From Ancylobacter koreensis (GTDB taxonomy: Bacteria; Pseudomonadota; Alphaproteobacteria; Rhizobiales; Xanthobacteraceae): DNA of 64,000 nucleotides. The position numbers were made by a program, and so were the translations under genes. The DNA lies in NCBI RefSeq assembly GCF_023016525.1, contig NZ_JALKCG010000003.1, positions 186,001 to 250,000 of the forward strand, given 5' to 3'. Below the pieces are notes generated by a model that made no database searches, was not told the origin of the DNA, and worked only from the letters and a program-made list of their open reading frames with translations. Shown in pieces: positions 5,278 to 55,476 of this stretch (the stretch's first letter is position 1; each line of letters begins with the position of its first letter).

Positions 5278-5986
5278 CCATCCTCCCGGGCAAGGCGATA
5301 TCGGCGATGATCGGCAGGTGGTCCGAGGCGTGGCGGGCTTCGCGGTCCGTGAAGGTGTCGAGCAGCATGCCGGGCGCGCTGCAATAGATGCGGTCGAGCC
5401 GCAGGGTCGGCCGGCAGGCGGGAAAGCTCTTCAGGCTTGAGCGCTCCGGCAGCACGCGCGCCAGCGTTCGCCGCACCAGCCCGAAGGAGAACCAGTCGTT
5501 GAAGTCTCCCATCATTACGGTCGGCCCGCCGGCGCAGGCGCGCGCAAGGCCCGCGAGGGTGATCGCCTGCCGCCGCCGCTCCAGCGGCTCCAGCCCGAGA
5601 TGGGCGGCAACGAGGTGCAATTCGCCGGCCGGCGTAGCGATACGGGTCTCGATCGCCATGCGCGGCTCGCGCCTGCGCACGGAGAGGTCGTGCAGCACGA
5701 CGTCGCGGATCGGCCAGCGCGAGAACAGCACGTGGCCGTAATGGCCGTCCGGCACGGCGATAGTGCGCGCCTCGGCGAGATGGCCGATGCCCAGCCCCTC
5801 CAGCGGCGCGAGGCAGCCTACCCCGCGCCCGCGTGTGTCGATTTCCTGAAGCGCCAGAATGTCGGGCCGATGGCGCACGATGAGGGCGGCGATGCGCCCG
5901 AGGTCGAACGCCCCGTCCGGCCCGACCCCGCCATGGATGTTCCACGTCATCAGCCGCAGCCGCGCGGGCGGCGCGGCCTCGCTCAT
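5261..5986 (-). CDS. endonuclease/exonuclease/phosphatase (EEP) family hydrolase
   Basis: A 241-residue EEP-fold protein. All family landmarks are visible: WNIHGG with N16, LQEID with E48, GDFND with D161 and N163, LDRIY with D198 and SDHLP with D222 and H223. These bind the metal and position the water for phosphodiester hydrolysis. The start ATG overlaps the TGA of the upstream PLD-VTT gene (ATGA), so the pair is one transcription and translation unit. An EEP protein beside a PLD-family cardiolipin-synthase-like protein recalls ybhP-clsB in Escherichia coli, which suggests a lipid or phosphodiester role more than DNA repair. There is no signal peptide, so it is probably cytosolic or peripheral to the membrane. 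Confidence 0.85.
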   Translation of the reverse strand: MSEAAPPARLRLMTWNIHGGVGPDGAFDLGRIAALIVRHRPDILALQEIDTRGRGVGCLAPLEGLGIGHLAEARTIAVPDGHYGHVLFSRWPIRDVVLHDLSVRRREPRMAIETRIATPAGELHLVAAHLGLEPLERRRQAITLAGLARACAGGPTVMMGDFNDWFSFGLVRRTLARVLPERSSLKSFPACRPTLRLDRIYCSAPGMLLDTFTDREARHASDHLPIIADIALPGRMVRPVG

Positions 5987-8154
5987 GCCGGCCTCCGCAG
6001 GCGGGTGACGAGAAGCTGCAACCCTATCGAGCAGCCGATCCACAGCAGTACGAAGCCGATCAGCAGCGAGATGCGCAGCAGCGAGGGCTCGGCGACCAGC
6101 TCCATGATCTGGTGGCCCAGCGCGCTCAGCACGATCAGCCCCGGCAGCAGTCCGAGCGCCGTGCCGAGCACGAAGTCGAGAAGGCCGAGCCCGGCCGCCC
6201 CGGCGACGAGGTTGATGAAGGTGTAGGGCGCTGCCGGCACCATGCGCATGGTCGCCACCGTCAGCACGCCGCGCTCGGCCAGCCCGCGCCGGATGCGGTT
6301 GATGCGCGGTCCGATGAAGCGGCGGATCACCCCCGCGCCGAGTTGTCGGCCGATGAAGAAGGTGACGATGGCGCTTGCGAGGGCGCCGATGCCGGCGAGA
6401 AGCGCGCCGGTCCAGCCGCCATAGACCGCGACCGTGGCGACGATCAGCACGGAGACGGGAAAGACCACCAGCCCGCTCAGCACATAGATCGCCACCACCA
6501 CGGCGGCGCCCCACGGGCGATCCGCCATGCCGTCGAGCGCGCTAACGATGCGCTCGGGATCGGCGAAGGGCGAGTTGGCCCAGGCGATCACCAGCGCCGC
6601 CAGTACGCCGACGCCGATCAATATGGCGCTGATACGCCAGTTGCGGCCGGATTTCGCCGGTGAGCGGTCGTCATAGATCGGCTCCAGCGGATCGGCGAGC
6701 GCGTTGATCTGCGGCAGCGCCAGTTCGGCGGGCGGTACCGGCGGCAGGTCGGCAAGCTGCCGCCCCTCCTCGCCGGCTCTTGAAGCGGCGATCAGCCCGT
6801 CGCGCGCAACGATCTCCGCCACCGCCTCCGGAGCGAGGCCGACATGCTCGCCGACCAGCCTGTCGCGAATGGCGGCGATGGTTGAGTGCTCGCTGTCGTC
6901 GCGCGCCTCGATCACGAGGTCGCATTCGCTGTCGAAACCCATTGAACGGTTGCATATATTGGCCGAGCCGACGCGCAGCAGCCGGTCGTCGACGATCAGC
7001 ATCTTGGAATGGACGAACACCGAGGCCGGCTCTCCCGCCGCGTCCTCGCCCTCAACCGCCGGAAAGACGAGGCGGGCACGTTCCGACAGGCCTTCCTCGG
7101 CGAGACGGCTGCGCAGCCGGTCGCGCGGTACGCCCATCACCTGATATTCGATCCAGGAGCGGTAGGTCCTCGGCGTGACGATGAGCGCCTCAAGCTCCGG
7201 GCGCGCCTTCATCCGCTCGATGAGGCGCTCCGTGAAGCGCTCGCAGGTCACGAACTGGTTCTCGACATAGATGGTGCGCTCGGCAGCGTCGATCATGTCG
7301 AACAGCAGCGTCTCGACCTCGCGGGCGCTGCGCTCGCCGCCATAGTCGGGCAGCGTGCGGGCGATGCCGATATCGACATTGCGGAAATCGGGTTCCAGTT
7401 CCTTCGGCCAGCGGGTGCGGGCGCGCCGGGTCGGCGCCAGCCGCTCGGAGGCGGCGCGCTTCCAGCGCTCGCGGAACAATGCGCCGAGGGCGGAGGCCGC
7501 CTCGCCGTCGACCGCCATCTGTACGTCGTGGAATGGCTCGTAGGCGCCGCCCTGCGGGTCGATGCGCAGTGGATCGTCGGGCCGGTGCGCCGGCGTGTCC
7601 CAGCGCCGGCCGGTCAGGTCCAGCCCGCCGGAGAAAGCGAGCGAGTCGTCCATCACCACGATCTTCTGATGGTGCGAGGCGCCGAGCGGCAGGGCGTCGT
7701 CGAGGCAGAGCTCGATCTGCTTCGGGGTCGCCCAGAGGAAGGAGTAGATCGGCGCCAGCTCGCGCTCCAGCGCGAACATCACCGAATAGTCCCACAGCAG
7801 CAGACGGATACGCAGGCGAGGGTTGCGCTCGACAAGGGCGGAGAGGAAGGCCGCCAGCGTCTCCGGCAGCCCGTCATCGGCGGTGCCGCTCTCGCCCACC
7901 AGCTTCATGCGGCTGTCGAGGTCCCAGCCGGCGATATGGATGGTCTCGCGCGCCTGCAGCATCGCGGCGCGCAGGGCGCCGAAATACGCAGCACCGTCCA
8001 CCAGCACCCGCGCATGCTCAGCATTGGCGACGCGCCAGACATTGCGGCCCTGCTTCAGCACGGCACCTTCGCCGCGCTGGGGAGGCGGAGCCAAAGGCTC
8101 CGGGGCGGGCTGGACGGCGATCGCGCTTTCGAGAAGGTCGTGGTTCCGGGACAT
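5983..8154 (-). CDS. PLD-family phosphatidyltransferase/phospholipase fused to a VTT (DedA/TVP38-like) membrane domain
   Basis: A 723-residue fusion. Residues 30-480 carry two phospholipase D HKD motifs: SHHQKIVVMDD (H162, K164, D169) and VHSKMLIVDD (H382, K384, D389), each followed by the usual Gly/Ser-Asn context. After a linker, residues about 505-723 hold hydrophobic segments with the VTT pattern (FPVSVLIVATVAVYGG, GALLAGIGALASAIV, MRMVPAAPYTFINLVAGAAG). PLD enzymes of this kind make cardiolipin or hydrolyse or transfer phosphatidyl groups; VTT proteins are linked to lipid scrambling and envelope homeostasis. The fusion would tether a soluble PLD to the inner membrane. It is coupled to the EEP hydrolase. 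A possible EcfG-type promoter lies about 70-90 bases upstream. Activity as synthase rather than phospholipase is not decided. Confidence 0.87.
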   Translation of the reverse strand: MSRNHDLLESAIAVQPAPEPLAPPPQRGEGAVLKQGRNVWRVANAEHARVLVDGAAYFGALRAAMLQARETIHIAGWDLDSRMKLVGESGTADDGLPETLAAFLSALVERNPRLRIRLLLWDYSVMFALERELAPIYSFLWATPKQIELCLDDALPLGASHHQKIVVMDDSLAFSGGLDLTGRRWDTPAHRPDDPLRIDPQGGAYEPFHDVQMAVDGEAASALGALFRERWKRAASERLAPTRRARTRWPKELEPDFRNVDIGIARTLPDYGGERSAREVETLLFDMIDAAERTIYVENQFVTCERFTERLIERMKARPELEALIVTPRTYRSWIEYQVMGVPRDRLRSRLAEEGLSERARLVFPAVEGEDAAGEPASVFVHSKMLIVDDRLLRVGSANICNRSMGFDSECDLVIEARDDSEHSTIAAIRDRLVGEHVGLAPEAVAEIVARDGLIAASRAGEEGRQLADLPPVPPAELALPQINALADPLEPIYDDRSPAKSGRNWRISAILIGVGVLAALVIAWANSPFADPERIVSALDGMADRPWGAAVVVAIYVLSGLVVFPVSVLIVATVAVYGGWTGALLAGIGALASAIVTFFIGRQLGAGVIRRFIGPRINRIRRGLAERGVLTVATMRMVPAAPYTFINLVAGAAGLGLLDFVLGTALGLLPGLIVLSALGHQIMELVAEPSLLRISLLIGFVLLWIGCSIGLQLLVTRLRRPA

Positions 8155-8220
8155 CTATGGCGCTTCTCGTCTGGATTGGGTTGGTCTTGCTTGGTCTGTA
8201 TTCGCGTTCGTCACGGCGCT

Positions 8221-8246
8221 AACCCTTGGCCCGTGGCGCCGGTTCC
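8221..8246 (-). promoter_or_regulatory. possible EcfG (general stress sigma) promoter for the PLD-VTT gene
   Basis: On the minus strand GGAAC (8246-8242) is followed by 18 bases and GTT (8223-8221), that is GGAAC-N17-GGTT. The alphaproteobacterial EcfG consensus is GGAAC-N16/17-CGTT, so the -35 is perfect and the -10 has one mismatch. It lies about 67 bases before the ATG. Weaker than the matches before ku2 and the PfpI gene. Confidence 0.35.
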
Positions 8247-8257
8247 CCGGTGCCGGG

Positions 8258-8566
8258 TCAGCTCAGAAAGGCGGCGGCGAGCGCACCTGCGCCGATGATG
8301 CCCACCAGCAGCCCGACGATGGCGGTCATGAATGAGACGCCCGGCAAGCTCGTGCCGCGGTCGTCATAGGGCCGGCCCCGCTCGTCCGTTCCGCTTCCGG
8401 TGGTGCCCGGCTCCGCATCAGCGGCCCTTGGCGCCACGCCGGCAGGACGGGCACCGGCCGCCTCGTCATCCGTGCCGAGGGGCGCGGCGGCGGGGTCGGA
8501 AAATGGAACCTTGTCGCGGGTCTTGCCTGCGTCGATCTGCGCACGCAGGCGCTCGGCATCCGACAT
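8258..8566 (-). CDS. small membrane-anchored hypothetical protein
   Basis: A 102-residue protein with strong Shine-Dalgarno AAGGAGAGACCC before the ATG. The first 75 residues are polar, rich in Asp, Ala, Pro and Gly (MSDAERLRAQIDAGKTRDKV then DPAAAPLGTDDEA). The last 27 form one hydrophobic helix (FMTAIVGLLVGIIGAGALAAAF) ending two residues later, a C-tail anchor topology that leaves the N-terminus in the cytosol. Similar short proteins occur in Hyphomicrobiales but I know no function for them. It is divergent from ku1, with only 139 bp between, and both genes have EcfG-like motifs there, which suggests joint stress induction. Confidence 0.75.
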   Translation of the reverse strand: MSDAERLRAQIDAGKTRDKVPFSDPAAAPLGTDDEAAGARPAGVAPRAADAEPGTTGSGTDERGRPYDDRGTSLPGVSFMTAIVGLLVGIIGAGALAAAFLS

Positions 8567-8605
8567 GGGTCTCTCCTTGGGTATCGCCTCGGGCTGTCGG
8601 GAACC

Positions 8606-8630
8606 AACGCGGCGGAATGCCGGCGGTTCA
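8606..8630 (-). promoter_or_regulatory. EcfG-like promoter for the small membrane protein
   Basis: Minus strand reads TGAAC (8630-8626), 16 bases, then CGTT (8609-8606). This is the EcfG consensus GGAAC-N16-CGTT with one mismatch in the first -35 base. It would start transcription about 30 bases before the ATG at 8566. Confidence 0.45.
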
Positions 8631-8646
8631 ACCGTCCGGTAAAACG

Positions 8647-8672
8647 GGAACCGGGTGCCGCTCCGCCGGATT
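8647..8672 (+). promoter_or_regulatory. EcfG/RpoE2-like promoter for ku1
   Basis: Plus strand GGAAC at 8647-8651 is followed by 19 bases and TT at 8671-8672, matching the RpoE2-type description GGAAC-N18/19-TT, although the two bases before TT are GA rather than CG. The GTG of ku1 is 33 bases further on. Confidence 0.4.
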
Positions 8673-8705
8673 AAGGATGCAAACCACCGTCGAGGGGAAC
8701 GAGCC

Positions 8706-9518
8706 GTGGCGCCGCGCGGATTCTGGAAAGGCTATCTCAAGCTGTCGCTGGTCACGTGTCCGGTGGCGATGCTGCCGGCGATCAGCGGCGCCGAGAAGAT
8801 CCGCTTCCACACGCTCAACCGGGCGACCGGCAACCGTGTCGAGGGGATTTACGTCGACACTGAGACCGACAAGACAGTCGAGAGCGAGGATCAGGCGCGC
8901 GGCTATGAGCGCGAGCCCGGCAGCTATGTCGTTCTCGACGACGACGAGCTGCAGGCGGTGGCACTGGAGAGCAACCGCACCATCGACATCGACACCTTCG
9001 TCCCGGCCGACAGCGTCGGATGGATCTGGTACGACACGCCCCATTTCCTCCTGCCGGACGACCCGGTCGGCGAAGAAGCCTTCGCCGTCATCCGCGAGGC
9101 GATGGCGGCCACCGGTACGGTCGGCCTGTCGCGCGTCGTGCTGCACCGGCGCGAGCGCCCGGTGATGCTGGAGCCGCGCGGGCGCGGCATCGTTCTCTGG
9201 ACGCTGCACTATTCGGACGAGCTGCGCCGGCCCGAGGGCTATTTCGACGACATCGATGCCAAGGCCGATGCGGACCTCGTGACGCTGGTGGGCCGCCTGA
9301 TCGACCGGCGCACCCGCGACTGGGACACAGCCCTCGTGCACGATCCGCTGCAGGAAAACTTGAAGAAGCTCATCGCGTCGAAGAAGAAGCGCGGGCGCCC
9401 GAAGCGCAGCGCCTCCCGCGAGCCGGCCGCCGAGGCGCCGACCAACGTCGTCAACATCATGGACGCGCTGAAGAAGAGCCTCGCTGCCGAGACCAAGCGC
9501 GGCGGCCGCGCGAAATAG
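8706..9518 (+). CDS. ku: non-homologous end joining protein Ku (ku1)
   Basis: A 270-residue bacterial Ku. It starts at GTG 8706 with ribosome binding site GAGGGG; the conserved RGFWKGYLKLSLVTCPV opening follows at once, while the longer frame upstream is not conserved in type. Ku core landmarks include RFHTLNRATGNRV and the DIDTF-VPADSV region. The protein forms a ring on double-strand ends and recruits LigD. The C-terminus carries KKKRGRPKRS (core RGRPK at residues 229-233), which reads as an AT-hook, followed by VVNIMDALKKS, also present in ku2 as VVSLMDALRES. It is convergent with mgtC, 9 bases apart, and belongs with ku2 and ligD functionally. It is clearly diverged from ku2, so the two may heterodimerise or act at different times. 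Confidence 0.95.
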   Translation: MAPRGFWKGYLKLSLVTCPVAMLPAISGAEKIRFHTLNRATGNRVEGIYVDTETDKTVESEDQARGYEREPGSYVVLDDDELQAVALESNRTIDIDTFVPADSVGWIWYDTPHFLLPDDPVGEEAFAVIREAMAATGTVGLSRVVLHRRERPVMLEPRGRGIVLWTLHYSDELRRPEGYFDDIDAKADADLVTLVGRLIDRRTRDWDTALVHDPLQENLKKLIASKKKRGRPKRSASREPAAEAPTNVVNIMDALKKSLAAETKRGGRAK

Positions 9519-9527
9519 CCCCGCGCC

Positions 9528-10064
9528 TCAGCGGGGCGGCTCCTCGTCGGCATTGTCGGAAAGCGGCGCCGAGCGGCGCTCGGGCGGCGGCGCGACCCGT
9601 TCCAGCACCCGCTCAAGCGGCAGCATCAGTGCCAGCAGCACGAAGGTGGTCGCCAGCGCGAGGAAGACGAGGTGCCAGGAGGCGATGGCGCAGGCGACGC
9701 CGAGCGCCGCCGTCACCCACACCGTCGCGGCGGTCGTCAGGCCATGCACTTCGAGCTTGTGGCGGTCGCGCAGCACCACGCCGGCGCCGAGGAAGCCGAT
9801 GCCGGTCATCACGCCCTGCACGATGCCCTGCACGACGCGGCTTGTGGCGTCGGGATGGCCGTTGATGCCTTCGACCCGCATCGCGGAGAGCGAGACGAGC
9901 GCCGCGCCCAGCCCGACCAGCCCGAGCGTGCGCATGCCGGTCGGCTTGCCGCGCAGGTCGCGGTTGATGCCGATGATCATGCCGCATCCGGCCGCCGCCA
10001 GCAGGCGCAGCAGTGCCTCGATCTCGTCGGGGGTGAGCCACCAGTCCTGCGGGAGATTCTCCAT
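9528..10064 (-). CDS. MgtC/SapB family inner-membrane protein
   Basis: A 178-residue protein with four or five hydrophobic segments in the first 150 residues. The MgtC/SapB pattern is clear: AAAGCGMIIGINRDLRGKP, GMRTLGLVGLGAAL, GIVQGVMTGIGFLGAGVVLR and LTTAATVWVTAALGVACA. MgtC proteins are inner-membrane factors tied to low-magnesium survival and, in some species, ATP synthase or phosphate homeostasis. The short C-terminal tail is polar and Pro/Arg rich, without the ACT-like domain of Salmonella MgtC, so it is the short form. It starts 6 bases after ligD, so it is probably the last gene of ku2-ligD-mgtC. A link with end joining is positional only. Confidence 0.85.
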   Translation of the reverse strand: MENLPQDWWLTPDEIEALLRLLAAAGCGMIIGINRDLRGKPTGMRTLGLVGLGAALVSLSAMRVEGINGHPDATSRVVQGIVQGVMTGIGFLGAGVVLRDRHKLEVHGLTTAATVWVTAALGVACAIASWHLVFLALATTFVLLALMLPLERVLERVAPPPERRSAPLSDNADEEPPR

Positions 10065-10070
10065 GGCAGG

Positions 10071-12668
10071 TCAGCCTTTCCGACGCGCGGTTCGCCGGCG
10101 GCCGGCCGGCGCTTCCGGCAACGGCACGGCGGCAGCGCGGAAGTCCGCCCAGGGATCGGCGGCGAGGTTGGCGAGGCGTGCGGGCGCGTCGGCGAGGGTG
10201 AACTGCGCCGCGCCGGCGATCTCATCCAGCTCCTCCCACGCGATGGGCATGGAGATGCCCGCTCCGGCGCGGGCACGCGGGCAATAGGTGGCGACGGCGG
10301 TGGCGCCTCGCCCGTTGCGCAGATAGTCGATGAAGATGCGCCCGGTGCGTCGCGCCTTGGTGGCGACCGCGATGTAGCGGTCGGGCTCGTCGGCGGCCAT
10401 GTCCTCGGCGAGGCCCTTGGCGAAGGCCTTGGCCGCGTCCCAGCGCGCGGCGGGTTTCAACGGGACGACGACATGCAGTCCCTTGCCGCCCGAGGTCTTG
10501 AGGAAGGCCGGCAGGCCCTGCGCCTCCAGCCGCTCCCGCACGGCGCGGGCACCCGCCACCACCGCCGGCCAGCCGACGCCCTCGGCGGGATCGAGGTCGA
10601 AGATCAGCGTGTCGGGCCGCTCGATATCGGCCAGCGTCGCGCCCCAGGGGTGGATTTCGAGCGCCCCGGACTGCACCAGCGCGATCAGCCCGTCGAGGTC
10701 GTCGATGTGGAGGAGTTCCTCACCGTCCGTGTCGTTCGAGACCTTGATGGCCTTGTTCATCCCGCGCCACGAATGCTTCTGGAAGAAGCAGGCCTCCACG
10801 ATGCCGTCCGGGCAGCGCAGCAGGGCGAGCGGCCGGGCGACGACGAAGGGCGCGATGAAGCGCCAGACCTCGGCGTAATAGTCGGCCAGCCCCTGCTTGG
10901 TGATGCCGTCCTCGGGCCAGTAGATGCGGTCGGGGTGCGTCAGCTTCACCCGCGAGCGCGGCGCGGTCGCCATGTCACTGCCCTCCGGCCCGTTTTCGTC
11001 CCGTGTGACCTCGCGGACGATCTCGCGCGCCGGCTTGTCCTCGCGCAACCCGCGAAAGGCAGCGTGGCGCAGGTGCTGGTCGCCCGTCCAGCCGCGAAAT
11101 TCGACCTCGGCGACGAGTTCGGGCGCCACGAAGACGGCGCCGCGCCGCTCCTCCGCGCTCAACGTGCCGGCGAAAGGGCTGCGTTCGCGCCGCAGCGCAT
11201 CGAGCCGCTCATACAGCTCCCTGGCGACACGCTGCGAGAAGCCGGTGCCGACCCGGCCGACATGGCGCAGCCGGCGCTCCTCGTAAACGCCGAGCAGGAG
11301 CGAGCCGACGGCGCTGCGGTTGGCCGTCGAGGGCACATAGCCGCCGATGACGAATTCCTGTCGGAAGGCGCATTTCGACTTCACCCAGTCCCGCCCGCGC
11401 CCGGCGTGGTAGGGCGCGCCGGCACGCTTCGACACCAGCCCTTCGAGGCTGAGCCGGCAGGCATGGCGCAGCATGGTGGCGCCGTCGACGGTGAAATGCT
11501 CGCTGTAGCGCACGATTCCGGCGGCGTCCTTCAGCCGCGCTTCCAGAAGCTCCTTGCGTGCCAGCAACTTTTCGCCGGTGAGGTCGCGCCCGTCGAGATG
11601 GAGCAGATCGAAGGCATAGTAGGTGAAGCGGTCGGCGCGGTCCTCGGCGAGATCCTGCTGGAGCAGGCTGAAGTTGGAGATGCCGGCGCCGCTCTCCACC
11701 ACCAGTTCGCCGTCGATGAGCGCGTTCTCGAACGGCAGCGCCTCCAGCGCGCGCGCCAGATCGGTGCCGAAGCGCCCGGTCCAGTCGAGGCCGGAGCGCG
11801 TCAGAAGGCGCACGCGCCGCTTGCCCGTGGCGGCCTTGTCGATGCGGGCCTGCAGCCTGTAGCCGTCGAACTTGATCTCGTGAATCCAGTCTTTGCCGGC
11901 CGGCGCCTTCGCGACGAGGGTGGCGAGTTCCGGCTGGACGAAATCCGGCAGCGGCGCGCCGACGCCGATGACCGCCTTTCGCGAGGCCGCCTTGTGCGAG
12001 GCCCCTTTGGCGGACGACGGCTTGGCGGATGGATTGGCGGATGGTGCGGATGCGCGCCTCGCCGCCTTCTTCGGCGGGTCGGCGGCGGCCGCATGGGCCG
12101 GGGCGCCCTGCGTGATCTCGTCCAGCGTGCGCCCGGTCTTCACCGAATCCGGCGCGGCTTCCAGAATGTCGGGCGCGTCGTCGGGACGGGCCGCCTCGTC
12201 CTCGCCCTTGATCAGCAGCCAGTTGTCGGCCTTCTCGCCCTTGCGCGGCGCCATCCTCACCAGATGCCAGCGCCCGCTGAGCTTCGTTCCGTGCAGCTCG
12301 AAGTCCAGATGGCCCTTGCGATAGCCCTTCGCCGCGTCGCCGATGGGCGCCCAGCTTCCGGTGTCCCACAGCATGACGGTGCCGCCGCCATACTGACCCT
12401 TCGGAATGGTCCCCTCGAAGCTGCCATAGTCGAGCGGATGGTCCTCGACATGCACGGCGAGGCGCTTCTCGCCGGGCACCAGGCTGGGACCGCGCGTCAC
12501 CGCCCAGCTCTTGAGCACGCCATCCATCTCCAGCCGCAGGTCGTAATGCAGGCGCCGGGCGGCGTGCTTCTGGATGAGGTAGGCGTGGCCGGCCTGCGCC
12601 GTCTCACTGCCGGCGGGCTCGGCCGTCTTGGTGAAGTCGCGCTTGCGGCGATAGAGGTCGAGCGCCAT
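10071..12668 (-). CDS. ligD: ATP-dependent DNA ligase LigD (phosphoesterase-ligase-polymerase)
   Basis: An 865-residue multifunctional NHEJ ligase with three domains. Residues 1-160 are the 3'-phosphoesterase (HAARRLHYDLRLEMDG with H35, H41, D43; HVEDHPLDYGSFEGTIP). Residues 190-235 form a Lys/Ala/Ser-rich linker. From about 236 comes the ligase with the nucleotidyl lysine K266 in EIKFDGYR. The C-terminal third is the archaeal-primase-type polymerase (THPDRIYWPEDG, FFQKHSWRGM, TLIFDLDPAEG with the metal Asp pair, TSGGKGLHVVVPL). The enzyme trims 3' ends, fills gaps and seals breaks held by Ku. This order matches Pseudomonas LigD rather than the mycobacterial order. It starts 3 bases after ku2 and is followed by mgtC, so it likely shares the ku2 promoter. 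Confidence 0.97.
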   Translation of the reverse strand: MALDLYRRKRDFTKTAEPAGSETAQAGHAYLIQKHAARRLHYDLRLEMDGVLKSWAVTRGPSLVPGEKRLAVHVEDHPLDYGSFEGTIPKGQYGGGTVMLWDTGSWAPIGDAAKGYRKGHLDFELHGTKLSGRWHLVRMAPRKGEKADNWLLIKGEDEAARPDDAPDILEAAPDSVKTGRTLDEITQGAPAHAAAADPPKKAARRASAPSANPSAKPSSAKGASHKAASRKAVIGVGAPLPDFVQPELATLVAKAPAGKDWIHEIKFDGYRLQARIDKAATGKRRVRLLTRSGLDWTGRFGTDLARALEALPFENALIDGELVVESGAGISNFSLLQQDLAEDRADRFTYYAFDLLHLDGRDLTGEKLLARKELLEARLKDAAGIVRYSEHFTVDGATMLRHACRLSLEGLVSKRAGAPYHAGRGRDWVKSKCAFRQEFVIGGYVPSTANRSAVGSLLLGVYEERRLRHVGRVGTGFSQRVARELYERLDALRRERSPFAGTLSAEERRGAVFVAPELVAEVEFRGWTGDQHLRHAAFRGLREDKPAREIVREVTRDENGPEGSDMATAPRSRVKLTHPDRIYWPEDGITKQGLADYYAEVWRFIAPFVVARPLALLRCPDGIVEACFFQKHSWRGMNKAIKVSNDTDGEELLHIDDLDGLIALVQSGALEIHPWGATLADIERPDTLIFDLDPAEGVGWPAVVAGARAVRERLEAQGLPAFLKTSGGKGLHVVVPLKPAARWDAAKAFAKGLAEDMAADEPDRYIAVATKARRTGRIFIDYLRNGRGATAVATYCPRARAGAGISMPIAWEELDEIAGAAQFTLADAPARLANLAADPWADFRAAAVPLPEAPAGRRRTARRKG

Positions 12669-12671
12669 CGC

Positions 12672-13583
12672 TCAGCCCGCCTTGCGCGTCGGCGTGCGAC
12701 CGGCGGCGGCCGTCGCCGACGCCTTGCGGGCCGGGGACTTCCCGGAAGCGGCTTTCGTGGTCGGGGCTTTCTTCGCCGGGGCCTTCTTCGCGTCGGCCTT
12801 GCCAACCTTCCCGCCTATGCCGGCGCTTTCGCGGAGCGCGTCCATGAGGCTGACGACCTTGGCGGCCGGCTTCTTCGGCGCGCGGATCTTGCGGCCTTCC
12901 AGCTTGGCGCGCACCAGCTCGGCCAGCGCGTCGTCGTAGCGGTCCTCGAAGGCTTCGGGCCGGAAGTCGCCGGTCTTGGTCTTGATGATGTGCCGGGCGA
13001 GATCGAGCATCTCGCGCTCGATCTTCACCTCGCCAATCTCCTCGAAGGCCTCCGCCGCCGAACGCACCTCGTAGTCGTAATGCAGCGTGGTGGCGACGAG
13101 GCCTTCGTCATAGGCGCGGATCAGCAACGTGCGCGGCCGGCGGAACAGCACCGCTGTCGCGATAGCGACGACCTTTTTCGCGCGCAGGCCCTCGCGGATG
13201 ACCGCGAAACTCGCCTGCGAGGCGTCGGCGGCGGGATGCAGATAATAGGGCCGCTCGAAATAGAGGTCGTCGACCTTCCCGCAGGGCACGAAGTTCTCGA
13301 TGCTCAGCGTGCGGTCGCCCTGCGGCGTCACGGCGGCGACTTCTTCCGGCTCCAGCACGATGTATTCGTCGCTGGCGACCTCGTAGCCCTTCACCTGTTC
13401 GTCGCGCGGCACCTCGTCGCCGGTCTGCGGGTCGATGAAGCGGCGCGACAGCCGGTTGCCGGTGCGGCGGTTCACCATGTGCAGCGCCACGCGCTCCGAG
13501 GCACTGACGCCGGTGTAGAGCGCCACGGCGCTGACCAGTTCACCGAGCTTGAGATAGCCCTTCCACGTCGCCCGCGCGACCAT
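12672..13583 (-). CDS. ku: non-homologous end joining protein Ku (ku2)
   Basis: A 303-residue Ku starting at the ATG of MVARATWKGYLKLGELV, with Shine-Dalgarno GGAGG five bases before it; 25 upstream in-frame residues were dropped. Core motifs include LHMVNRRTGNRLSRRFID, YEVASDEYIVLEPEE and ENFVPCGKVDDLYFERPYYL. The C-terminus has VVSLMDALRES and then a roughly 45-residue Lys/Ala/Thr-rich tail with repeated KAPAKK and RKA units, a histone-like DNA-binding extension known from several bacterial Ku proteins. It heads ku2-ligD-mgtC (3-base and 6-base gaps). A perfect EcfG-type motif stands 40-64 bases upstream, suggesting induction by general stress. Ring-forming DNA-end binding is known for the family; division of labour with ku1 is inferred. 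Confidence 0.95.
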   Translation of the reverse strand: MVARATWKGYLKLGELVSAVALYTGVSASERVALHMVNRRTGNRLSRRFIDPQTGDEVPRDEQVKGYEVASDEYIVLEPEEVAAVTPQGDRTLSIENFVPCGKVDDLYFERPYYLHPAADASQASFAVIREGLRAKKVVAIATAVLFRRPRTLLIRAYDEGLVATTLHYDYEVRSAAEAFEEIGEVKIEREMLDLARHIIKTKTGDFRPEAFEDRYDDALAELVRAKLEGRKIRAPKKPAAKVVSLMDALRESAGIGGKVGKADAKKAPAKKAPTTKAASGKSPARKASATAAAGRTPTRKAG

Positions 13584-13622
13584 CCCCCACCTCCGCTGCC
13601 GGTATGCCGGCGCCATCGGTCT

Positions 13623-13647
13623 AACGCGCGTTGCCGCCCGGCGTTCC
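13623..13647 (-). promoter_or_regulatory. EcfG-type general-stress promoter for ku2-ligD-mgtC
   Basis: Minus strand GGAAC (13647-13643), 16 bases, CGTT (13626-13623): an exact match to GGAAC-N16/17-CGTT. The start of ku2 is 40 bases downstream of the -10, with a ribosome binding site between. NHEJ genes of Sinorhizobium are known RpoE2 targets, which fits. Confidence 0.65.
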
Positions 13648-13718
13648 AGCACCGGCATCGCCGACGACCGGCGGGCACGCTGGCGCCCGCCGGTCGCGTG
13701 CTTTCAGGTCGCTGGCCC

Positions 13719-14282
13719 TCAGGCGACCTTGCGCCGCTCGTGCCGCCCTTCGCCGATCTCCTCGACGATCTTGCCGACGAAGGCCTTCAGGTCGGCCGGC
13801 GAGCGCGAGGTGATGATGCCCTGATCGGCGGCGACATCGCGGTCGACCCATTTGCCGCCGGCATTGATCACATCGGTGCGGATCGAGGCGTAGGAGGTCA
13901 CGGTGCGCCCGCGCACCGCGTCTGCCTCCACCAGCAGCCACGGGCCGTGGCAGATGGCGGCGACGACCTTGCCGCCGTCGAGGAAAGCCCGGACGATCGC
14001 CATCGCGTCCTTGTCCGCGCGCAGCACGTCCGGGTTCATCTGCCCGCCGGGGATGACGAGCGCGTCGTAGTTCTCCGGGCGCACGGAGGCCAGGGCGGCG
14101 TCGGCCTCAAGCGTCTCGCCCCAGTTCTTGTCCTTCCAGCCGCGGATCGCCTTGCCGTCCGGGCTGGCCACCTCGACGCGGGCGCCGGCGGCACGCAGCT
14201 CCTTGAGCGGCACCATGAGTTCGGACTGCTCGAAGCCGTCGGCGGCGATGATGAGGACGCGAGCGTCAGTGATGGTCGGCAT
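13719..14282 (-). CDS. PfpI/DJ-1 family (type 1 glutamine amidotransferase-like) protein
   Basis: A 187-residue DJ-1/PfpI superfamily protein. The start ATG has GGAGAA upstream and precedes the first strand ARVLIIAADGFEQSEL, whose Glu is the usual partner of the nucleophile. The nucleophile elbow is VVAAICHGPWLL with Cys in A-x-C-H-G, and PGGQMNPDVLR is the conserved loop. Members act as proteases, chaperones or glyoxalase/deglycase-like enzymes under oxidative or carbonyl stress; which applies here cannot be seen. It is separated from ku2 by about 135 bp and has its own perfect EcfG-type promoter motif 75-99 bases upstream, in line with a stress role. Confidence 0.88.
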   Translation of the reverse strand: MPTITDARVLIIAADGFEQSELMVPLKELRAAGARVEVASPDGKAIRGWKDKNWGETLEADAALASVRPENYDALVIPGGQMNPDVLRADKDAMAIVRAFLDGGKVVAAICHGPWLLVEADAVRGRTVTSYASIRTDVINAGGKWVDRDVAADQGIITSRSPADLKAFVGKIVEEIGEGRHERRKVA

Positions 14283-14356
14283 GGGATTCTCCGTCTGTAC
14301 GTGCCCCCCGGAGCCGGCCGAGACTGAAGCCTCGCCCGCGCCCTGCCCCAGGAACG

Positions 14357-14381
14357 AACGCGCCGTTCCGGCCGATGTTCC
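14357..14381 (-). promoter_or_regulatory. EcfG-type general-stress promoter for the PfpI gene
   Basis: Minus strand GGAAC (14381-14377), 16 bases, CGTT (14360-14357) exactly fits GGAAC-N16/17-CGTT. The predicted leader to the ATG at 14282 is about 65-70 bases. The rest of the 14283-14641 gap shows no gene, hairpin or repeat I can support. Confidence 0.6.
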
Positions 14382-14641
14382 CGCTGCGCCCGACCGACGC
14401 TCCCTCCTCGCACGCGTGTGCGGCGGGCGCCGGGACGCGCCGCTCGGCCAATACTTCCGATCCGCACGCATGCGCGGCCGTTCGACGCCGAAAGACCTCA
14501 GGACGAGGCGTGCCCTAGAGTTAAGCCACGGTCGCCGATGCACTCGGCGAGGTCTTTTACCGGCGGACGGACGGCTTGGTGGCCGACTTCCACGGCGTCT
14601 TCACCGTCATCAACGACAACCGACTTCCAAGAGGTGCTGCC

Positions 14642-15430
14642 ATGACTGCCCATCGTCTGCGCGCTGCGGCGCTGCTCGCCTGCCTGTCCGCTTTCGCCAT
14701 GCCGGCGCACGCCGCCGACGCCGCGCCGGTCAAGAACATCGTGCTGGTGCACGGTGCCTGGGTCGACGCCTCCGGCTGGAAGCCGGTCTACGACATCCTG
14801 ATCCGCGACGGCTTCAACGTCTCGATGGTGCAGGAGCCCGAAACCTCCTTCGCGGACGACGTGACCGCCGCCAAGCGTGTCATCGACATGCAGGATGGTC
14901 CGACCCTGCTGGTCGGCCATTCCTATGGTGGCTCGATCATCACGCAGGCCGGCGTCGACCCGAAGGTCGCGGGCCTCGTCTATGTTGCCGCCCATGCGCC
15001 GGATGTCGGCGAGGACGAGGGCGAACTCGGCCGGAAGATGCCGAGCGTGCTGGCGAAGACCCCGGGAGCCGTCGAGGTGACGGCGGACGGCTTCACCTAT
15101 CTCAAGCCGGAGCTGTTCCCCAAGCTGTTCGCGCCGGACATGCCGTCGGCACAGGCCACCTTCGAGGCGCGCTCGCAGGTGCTGGCCGCCAAGGGCGTGT
15201 TCGGCACCCCCCTGACGGCGGCGGCATGGAAGACCAAGCCAAGCTGGGGCATCGTCGCCGGCGACGACCAGATCATCAATCCGGACCTCGAACGCTTCTA
15301 TTACGAGCGCGCCAAGGCGCCCTTCATCGTGGTGCCCGGCGCCAGCCACTCAGTTTACGAGACGCACCCCGAACAGGTCGCCGCCGTCATCGAGAGCGCC
15401 GCGCGCAGTCTCGGCTCCGCGTCCGAGTGA
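14642..15430 (+). CDS. secreted alpha/beta hydrolase
   Basis: A 262-residue protein with a signal peptide (MTAHRLRAAALLACLSAFAM, cleavage likely after AHA at residue 24), so it is exported to the periplasm. The hydrolase fold is evident: NIVLVHGAWVDASGWKPV (oxyanion HG), nucleophile elbow GHSYGG with S94, GIVAGDDQIINPD carrying the acid, and GASHSVYETHP with the catalytic His. The HGAW opening and overall order resemble the subgroup that includes many predicted esterases and salicylate-esterase-like enzymes. The start ATG has AAGAGGTG upstream. It stands alone between the PfpI gene (divergent) and cydC (convergent). Substrate unknown. Confidence 0.88.
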   Translation: MTAHRLRAAALLACLSAFAMPAHAADAAPVKNIVLVHGAWVDASGWKPVYDILIRDGFNVSMVQEPETSFADDVTAAKRVIDMQDGPTLLVGHSYGGSIITQAGVDPKVAGLVYVAAHAPDVGEDEGELGRKMPSVLAKTPGAVEVTADGFTYLKPELFPKLFAPDMPSAQATFEARSQVLAAKGVFGTPLTAAAWKTKPSWGIVAGDDQIINPDLERFYYERAKAPFIVVPGASHSVYETHPEQVAAVIESAARSLGSASE

Positions 15431-54310: not shown

Positions 54311-54820
54311 CTAGCCGTTATGCCCGAACCGGCCGCGCAGGCGGGCCAGTACGGCGGGCGGGACGAAGGCGGACACGTCGCCACCCATGGCGGCGATCTG
54401 CCTGACCAGAGTGGCGGTGATGGGGCGGGCGATGGGCGAGGCCGGCAGGAAAACCGTCTGCACGCGGGGTTTCAGCACCGCGTTCATGCCAGCCATCTGC
54501 ATCTCGTAGTCGAGATCCGTGCCGTCGCGCAGGCCGCGGATGAGAAGGCTCGCGCCCTGCGCTTCGGCGGCGTCGACTACGAGCGTGTCAAAGGTCACGC
54601 AGTCCAGCGCGGCGCCCTCCTCGCGGGCGATCGGCTCGAACACCTCGCGCAGCATCTCCAGCCGCTCGGCAGCCGGGAACAACGGCGTCTTTCCGGGATG
54701 GATGCCGACCCCGACCACGAGCCGATCAACCAGCCGCGCGGCGGCGCGCGCCACCTCGACATGACCGTTGGTCGGCGGATCGAACGAGCCGGGATAGAAG
54801 GCGGTGCGCGTGGCGCTCAT
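54311..54820 (-). CDS. coaD: phosphopantetheine adenylyltransferase CoaD
   Basis: A 169-residue nucleotidyltransferase of coenzyme A synthesis. Motifs: [20 protein letters not shown] (TxGH), [33 protein letters not shown] (substrate-binding arginine) and a closing TATLVRQIA. It begins the run coaD, two cyclophilins, queA, tgt. Start ATG at 54820. Confidence 0.96.
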
Positions 54821-54894
54821 GCAGTGCCTCTCGATGCGCCGCCAGCGTTAGCGGCCTCCCGCCGCCGACGCAAGCGGGACCGGCGCCCCGGTCC

Positions 54895-55476
54895 CTAGCG
54901 TTCCGCCCGGTCGATCCACTTCGTCACCTGCGGCGCACGGTAGTCGCGCAGCCGCGCGAGCAACGCTTCGGGCTCCTCACCCACCAGCAGCATGTCGCGA
55001 TGCGCCTCGCGCATGAAACCTTCCTCGACCGCATGGTCGATGAAGCGCAGCAGCGGCCGGTAAAAGCCGGCGACGTCGAGCACGGCGCAAGGCTTCTCGT
55101 GGCTGCCGAGTTGCGCCCAGGTCCACACCTCGAACAGTTCCTCCAGCGTGCCGATGCCGCCGGGCAGCGCGACGAAGGCATCGGCGAGGCTCGCCATCAG
55201 CGCCTTGCGCTCATGCATGGAGCCGACCACGCGCAGGTCCGACAGGCCGAGATGGGCGACTTCCTTGTCGACGAGGCGCTGCGGGATGACGCCGATCACC
55301 TCGCCGCCCGCCGCCAGCGCGGCATCGGCCAACGCGCCCATCAGCCCGACGGAAGCCCCGCCATAAACGAGGCCGATGCCTTCGCGGGCCAGCAGCCGGC
55401 CGAAATCGAGCGCGGCCTGCCGGTATTCCGGCCGCCGGCCGGCATTCGAGCCAAGAAAGACGCAGATACGGCGCAT
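54895..55476 (-). CDS. LOG family protein (cytokinin riboside 5'-monophosphate phosphoribohydrolase-like)
   Basis: A 193-residue Rossmann-like protein with the LOG signature PGGIGTLEE (residues 105-113) and the leading [40 protein letters not shown]. The start is [10 protein letters not shown] with GAGAGG upstream; 38 basic residues of longer frame were dropped. Members remove ribose phosphate from nucleotides; in bacteria they may produce cytokinins or recycle purines. Single gene, 74 bases from coaD and 85 from gyrA. Confidence 0.9.

Follow-up and report, generated by a model that had tools for sequence, protein, structure and literature searches.

The 64,000-nucleotide stretch of Ancylobacter koreensis DNA analysed here (contig NZ_JALKCG010000003.1, positions 186,001 to 250,000; hereafter the window) encodes a predicted non-homologous end joining (NHEJ) system with two Ku proteins, which is very probably a stress-inducible system driven by the sigma factor EcfG, its neighbouring genes standing under separate EcfG promoters. 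The genes fall into five units, namely ku2-ligD-mgtC, ku1, pfpI, a small membrane protein gene (smp) and a PLD-VTT membrane protein gene (pld), each preceded by a predicted EcfG or EcfG-like promoter (Table 1). The motif, GGAAC-N16-CGTT, is the published EcfG consensus (PMC7083833). All five sites are present where the initial annotation, made from the sequence alone, had placed them. Its position for the ku1 site held, but its GGAAC-N19-TT spacing was set aside in favour of N16/17-(G/A)ATT; the same bases are read here as GGAAC-N17-GATT because close relatives keep GGAAC-N16-GATT there.

PhyR, NepR and EcfG form an established stress switch. Upon stress, PhyR would be phosphorylated and capture NepR, EcfG would be released, and RNA polymerase carrying EcfG would transcribe its targets. 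The five units would each be read from their own promoter, with ku1 transcribed from the far side toward ku2-ligD-mgtC, and resting or stressed cells, in which homologous templates are scarce, would thereby come to make a two-Ku end-joining system. Judging from this switch and the biology of NHEJ, EcfG would bind the sites and induce the genes, Ku1 and Ku2 would cooperate, and the cell would benefit. The graded quality of the sites (perfect for ku2 and pfpI, GATT for ku1, TGAAC for smp and GGTT for pld) suggests a graded output.

As the window alone could not exclude chance, the motif was assessed genome-wide and by comparison with relatives. The whole-genome scan that the initial annotation had called for revealed 64 perfect sites, compared to 16 sites of the reversed motif. 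Forty-seven of the 64 perfect sites (both window sites and 45 of the 62 outside the window) are intergenic, with a called gene beginning no more than 250 bp downstream, against 3 of the 16 reversed sites (Fisher p = 9e-5); genes were called by a simple codon-usage method, and a site was counted when the gene was on the right strand and began within that distance. In addition, perfect sites cluster, with eight pairs at most 800 bp apart against 0.8 expected; the ku2/pfpI pair is one of these eight, so that it does not stand out on its own. Enrichment in the genome extends to the GGTT and GATT forms (52 vs 12 reversed). Among the 30 of these 52 sites that were examined, with duplicate rows removed, 10 of 19 GGTT and 5 of 11 GATT sites occupy intergenic positions upstream of a gene, which places these forms between the perfect sites and the reversed control. 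One GGAAC-N16-GGTT string (L377; G000:C11:873277-873303) is legible on both strands with an offset of 2 bp and has called genes on either side.

The genome encodes the complete switch. A single NepR gene is directly followed by the EcfG gene (L031:1641-2192), whose best PDB relative is 5uxx (1e-55); phyR is divergent from nepR-ecfG, and a perfect site precedes each of the two transcripts. Three other proteins resembling extracytoplasmic function (ECF) sigma factors are 30-37% identical to EcfG, leaving a single close EcfG copy. A Pfam scan of the proteins behind 50 of the 62 perfect sites outside the window, five of which lie 253-287 bp from the called start, identified PhyR, NepR, a trehalose-phosphatase, a peroxiredoxin, three PRC-barrel proteins, a mechanosensitive channel, a CsbD-like protein (below the cut-off) and a sigma-70-family protein of RpoH-like length, besides many small proteins without a family. 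This set is similar to the general stress regulon reported in PMC6599016. One of the ECF-like genes, the second by similarity (37% identical to EcfG), lies near three perfect sites at G000:C11:632184-636310.

In close relatives, the ku2 site is well conserved: among 11 close loci (L032-L042) all nine positions match in seven and eight of nine in three, the site being absent in L042. When whole genomes of relatives were scanned, a site with at least 8 of 9 matches stood before ku2 at 27 of 29 loci and was perfect at 18; several of these genomes are those of the named loci, and two of the rows, L100 and L101, also occur in a further ku set. Where pfpI is adjacent, its site is perfect in all five close loci, and the pld site has 9/9 or, in the GGTT form, 8/9 matches in 6 of 6 close relatives. 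By contrast, ligD (11 of 11 close relatives) and mgtC (6 of 6 scanned) have at most 7/9 upstream, and these two genes, internal to the operon, serve as an internal negative control. All seven sequences compared (window 8566-8706; L032-L036 and L040) carry CGGTTCA and GGAACC unchanged in the gap between ku1 and smp, the TGAAC of smp is equally invariant, and five close relatives without smp at the locus still keep GGAAC upstream of ku1. The divergent -35 boxes of ku1 and smp lie 6-8 bp apart in five of the seven sequences and, with a spacing longer by about one helical turn, 16 and 18 bp apart in the remaining two; shared or competing polymerase binding is possible.

The pattern appears to extend across the class. 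A draw of 289 alphaproteobacterial genomes gave, apart from the window's genome, 58 ku places; the 400 bp upstream of every one were scanned, and 34 have a site with at least 8/9 matches, 10 of them perfect. Two hundred permuted motifs on the same places gave means of only 4.0 (maximum 17) at 8/9 and 0.2 (maximum 2) perfect. In other Proteobacteria, 3 of 30 ku places reach 8/9 and none is perfect (Fisher p = 9e-6 against 34 of 58); these are 30 of 32 places, two fragments of one genome being left out. The class-wide figures score a ku gene in second position of an operon as a miss, and some misses (L156, L212, L213, L058 and L059) retain GGAAC with an AATT or GATT -10 at N16. A convenience set of 29 of the ku places listed for the same order has 21 with at least 8/9 and 10 perfect, and eight further alphaproteobacterial ku places gave four at or above 8/9 and no perfect site. 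An MgtC-family gene of Aquisalinus luteolus (L061, 3012-3494) has a perfect site 8 bp before its aligned start.

Similar arrangements are found on plasmids, of which five loci were picked by hand from 60 listed rows. On pSfreNXT3c of Sinorhizobium fredii and pANY103b of Aminobacter, ku1 converges on ligD-ku2, with a perfect site before each ku gene. On pSymB of Sinorhizobium meliloti the tandem ku genes have GGAAC-N17-GGTT 35 bp upstream, and no site was found at a ku of pSymA. In Rhizobium etli p42e the GGTT form stands before tandem ku genes, and a separate ligD is preceded by a perfect site. In S. meliloti, ku and ligD are reportedly under the EcfG-type sigma factor RpoE2, giving stress-inducible NHEJ (Dupuy, Sauviac and Bruand, 2019, NAR 47:1335), and the sites on the S. 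meliloti and R. etli plasmids agree with that system. Compared to the tandem ku genes of pSymB, the window has convergent ku1 and ku2-ligD-mgtC with separate promoters, beside pfpI, smp and pld. The pANY103b plasmid also carries (L362, 9510-10798) a catalase gene that diverges from ku2-ligD; GGAAC-N16-CATT lies 43 bp before this gene, which appears to be another stress gene stacked beside end joining.

Published systems point the same way. In Sphingomonas melonis Fr1, ku is among the 50 most EcfG-dependent genes (log2 -3.2 in the ecfG mutant), and its putative promoter, GGAAC-N16-AATT 30 bp upstream, is close to the ku1 form of the window and supports reading that site as GGAAC-N17-GATT (PMC6599016); the terms ligD and pfpI do not occur in the main text of that paper. 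Sphingopyxis granuli TFA combines ku-ligD in its general stress response regulon with the GGAAC-N16-CGTT consensus, as is predicted for the window, and its -10 element is flexible, with 14 different -10 boxes; it differs in having two EcfG paralogues, and no such cluster is described in the available text (PMC7083833). In Mesorhizobium loti, heat induces three of four ku and one of three ligD genes, and an rpoE2 homologue is also up, although dependence on that sigma factor is not shown in the portion available (PMC3989490). EcfG-dependent end-joining genes are already known from Sphingomonas (ku) and Sphingopyxis (ku-ligD) and are reported from Sinorhizobium (ku and ligD); what is added here is the class-wide pattern and two candidate core stress genes.

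These two candidates are pfpI and smp. For pfpI, the best-scoring 30 of 46 places in the order (L325-L354, the window's genome included) comprise 26 with at least 8/9 matches, 20 of them perfect and mostly 30-75 bp before the aligned start; among 180 background windows from the same loci, 5.6% reach 8/9 and 1.7% are perfect. Most of these orthologues have no ku nearby, and across the Hyphomicrobiales pfpI appears to belong to the core of the general stress response. The smp family occurs at 24 places (L272-L295) in 23 of 199 genomes, and 16 of the 24 have at least 8/9, four of them perfect, against 6.9% and 0.7%, respectively, of 144 background windows. An N-terminal segment around DKVPxxDPAAAPLGTDDEAAG is common to its members, most of which show, by eye, a C-terminal hydrophobic stretch; among seven members scanned, a single Pfam match was obtained (E = 0.006). 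No report of pfpI or the smp family as EcfG genes was found in open-licence text.

The initial annotation had described these genes as an island switched on together. Separately promoted units are indeed stacked in one genus, but they do not form a single regulated block. L032, L033 and L035 (Ancylobacter polymorphus DSM 2457) preserve the order pfpI/ku2-ligD-mgtC/ku1/smp/pld, as do L036 (A. aquaticus DSM 101) and L040 except that pfpI is missing beside ku2. In L034 the pld-smp-ku1 block is inverted and begins about 4 kb beyond mgtC, and L037-L039, L041 (Hansschlegelia) and L042 have ku1-ligD-ku2 without smp or pld. Counting neighbours within 1.5-kb flanks, pfpI is found near ku2 in 7 of 29 ku2 loci, all of the genus, and beside ku or ligD in 4 of 30 pfpI loci, two of the genus and two from another family of the order; pld and smp stand beside ku in the genus only, and smp stands beside a ligD-like gene in L295, from another family. 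The inversion, the lack of any pfpI found beside ku2 in L036-L041, its rarity near ku2 elsewhere and the separate site of each unit therefore argue against an island, and the cluster appears to be mainly a genus-level stacking of separately promoted genes.

Several observations weigh against EcfG control of these genes, or at least against its generality. Within the window alone, the number of motif matches does not reach significance: the two perfect ones compare to a mean of 0.67 in 100 order-1 Markov simulations, 15 of which reach two, and the one-mismatch counts are near the shuffle means (16 vs 11.3 for N16, 12 vs 10.7 for N17), so the earlier argument that two perfect sites exceed chance fails there. 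Ancylobacter mangrovi (L042/L083) lacks the ku2 site, and that of L039/L087 is poor. In the class-wide draw, the 400 bp scanned contain no 8/9 site at 24 of the 58 ku places, and one of the 200 permuted motifs reached 17 of 58; moreover, genomes that are related do not count as independent samples, a dependence that the permuted-motif control leaves uncorrected. The presence of a Pfam-detected NepR made no significant difference to the ku site (19 of 27 vs 8 of 18, p = 0.12) in 45 hand-grouped class-draw genomes with ku, the window's not among them, a comparison made with a 35-residue NepR model that misses genomes with perfect sites. The ligD of the gammaproteobacterium Modicisalibacter luteus (L054, at 10001) has GGAAC-N15-CGTT 47 bp upstream; such strings thus arise where EcfG is not expected, by chance or by transfer from an alphaproteobacterium. 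Finally, pld has poor sites outside the genus, with at least 8/9 in 12 of 29 and several at odd, implausible distances, and it was not retained as a wider EcfG gene.

The window counts just given lie within the range that simulations and shuffles allow for chance matches in GC-rich DNA, yet the fourfold genome excess over the reversed motif, the placement upstream of genes and the conservation before orthologues make it extremely unlikely that the sites are such matches. Another ECF sigma factor with an AAC-type -35 could also recognize them, given the three weaker ECF-like matches in the genome and an AAC core described as common to ECF sigma promoters (PMC7083833). This explanation is very unlikely, as the same perfect motif precedes phyR and nepR-ecfG and coincides with the EcfG consensus, and as ku sites, common in Alphaproteobacteria, are seldom seen in other Proteobacteria. 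EcfG control itself is strongly supported by the genome enrichment, the shared motif of phyR, nepR and ecfG, the conservation and the published dependence of ku in two genera; the initial annotation had very probably named the cause correctly, on a statistical argument that was insufficient and with a term, island, that overstates unity.

A narrower version of EcfG control would confine it to ku2-ligD-mgtC and pfpI, with ku1, smp and pld using other promoters. Only those two units have perfect sites, pld sites fade beyond the genus, and GATT sites stand upstream of genes less often than perfect ones; set against this, the invariant GGAACC of ku1 and TGAAC of smp, the 9/9 or GGTT form of the pld site in 6 of 6 close relatives and the EcfG-dependent AATT -10 ku promoter of S. 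melonis (PMC6599016) leave the narrower version unlikely. The scan of 8000-14700 gave no sigma-70-like promoter either, which is a weak point, such a scan being uninformative at this G+C. It is likewise quite improbable that the CGGTTCA-N-GGAACC dyad between ku1 and smp is a transcription-factor operator and not a pair of back-to-back promoters: although it is an inverted repeat invariant in all seven sequences, its half-site spacing varies, each half has a -10-like box at promoter distance, and ku1 keeps its upstream GGAAC where smp is missing from the locus.

Altogether, we tentatively propose a wider picture, which we consider possible but somewhat short of an even chance. Alphaproteobacterial end joining may be a default general-stress function, carried by a recurring two-Ku module of convergent ku1 and ku2-ligD, which also travels on plasmids and whose separate EcfG promoters differ in strength, so that the level of stress would set the Ku1:Ku2 ratio and the joining capacity; PfpI and the membrane-anchored DPAAAPLGTDDEAAG protein, which has no family model, might be core partners of the stress response in the Hyphomicrobiales. 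This would join scattered reports of end joining under stress control into a pattern spanning the class, and it predicts template-free joining of broken ends in stressed or resting alphaproteobacteria. It would bear on mutation and foreign DNA uptake under stress, on desiccation survival and on the timing of repair by joining, and it offers pfpI and the smp family as two general-stress candidates.

Table 1. Genes and predicted promoter sites of the end-joining region in the window; distances are to the start of the gene.
Feature	Coordinates	Strand	Description	Domain or model matches
pfpI	13719..14282	-	187 aa, DJ-1/PfpI family	Pfam DJ-1_PfpI 8.3e-52; TIGR01382 182 bits (cut-off 139)
ku2	12672..13583	-	303 aa, heads ku2-ligD-mgtC	Pfam Ku 5.6e-39; NCBIfam Ku_bact 263 bits (cut-off 150)
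ligD	10071..12668	-	865 aa phosphoesterase-ligase-polymerase	LigD_N, DNA ligase, LigD Prim-Pol; TIGR02776 664 bits (cut-off 373)
mgtC-family membrane protein gene	9528..10064	-		Pfam MgtC 1.1e-30
ku1	8706..9518	+	270 aa, GTG start	Pfam Ku 3.8e-42; Ku_bact 271 bits
smp (small membrane protein gene)	8258..8566	-	102 aa	no Pfam or NCBIfam match
pld (PLD-VTT membrane protein gene)	5983..8154	-	723 aa	PLDc, PLDc_2, VTT domains
ku2-ligD-mgtC predicted EcfG promoter	13623..13647	-	GGAAC-N16-CGTT, perfect, 39 bp	
pfpI predicted EcfG promoter	14357..14381	-	GGAAC-N16-CGTT, perfect, 74 bp	
smp EcfG-like promoter	8606..8630	-	TGAAC-N16-CGTT, 39 bp	
pld EcfG-like promoter	8221..8246	-	GGAAC-N17-GGTT, 66 bp	
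ku1 EcfG-like promoter	8647..8672 (G000:C13:194647-194672)	+	GGAAC-N17-GATT	

Both Ku proteins score above the Ku_bact cut-off, and LigD has the phosphoesterase, ligase and polymerase domains of bacterial NHEJ. The gaps of 3 bp between ku2 and ligD and 6 bp between ligD and mgtC predict one operon, toward which ku1 is convergent. The coding 3' ends of ku1 and mgtC meet 9 bp apart (9518-9528), and the 3' ends of their transcripts may overlap. The nearest ligD loci in the named collection are those of nine Ancylobacter species (72-77% protein identity) and of one member of the Xanthobacteraceae (74%). Membrane-lipid remodelling, which the initial annotation had further grouped with end joining, is a weaker part of that reading: the PLD-VTT protein scores 38.5 bits with cardiolipin-synthase models, far under their cut-off of 290, and mgtC is present only as the last gene of the operon.

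In the whole window, 14 sites have at least 8/9 matches with AAC kept, and five of them occupy intergenic DNA no more than 100 bp before a called gene. Four of these five are sites of the initial annotation. An 8/9 string on the plus strand at 14351-14376 overlaps the pfpI site and points at a hydrolase gene from more than 200 bp; this gene was dropped as a negative control, with a single scorable relative (L035, 6/9). The fifth of the intergenic sites, GGAAC-N17-CGGT with one mismatch at 54879-54904, lies 58 bp before a called gene on the minus strand (54311-54820).

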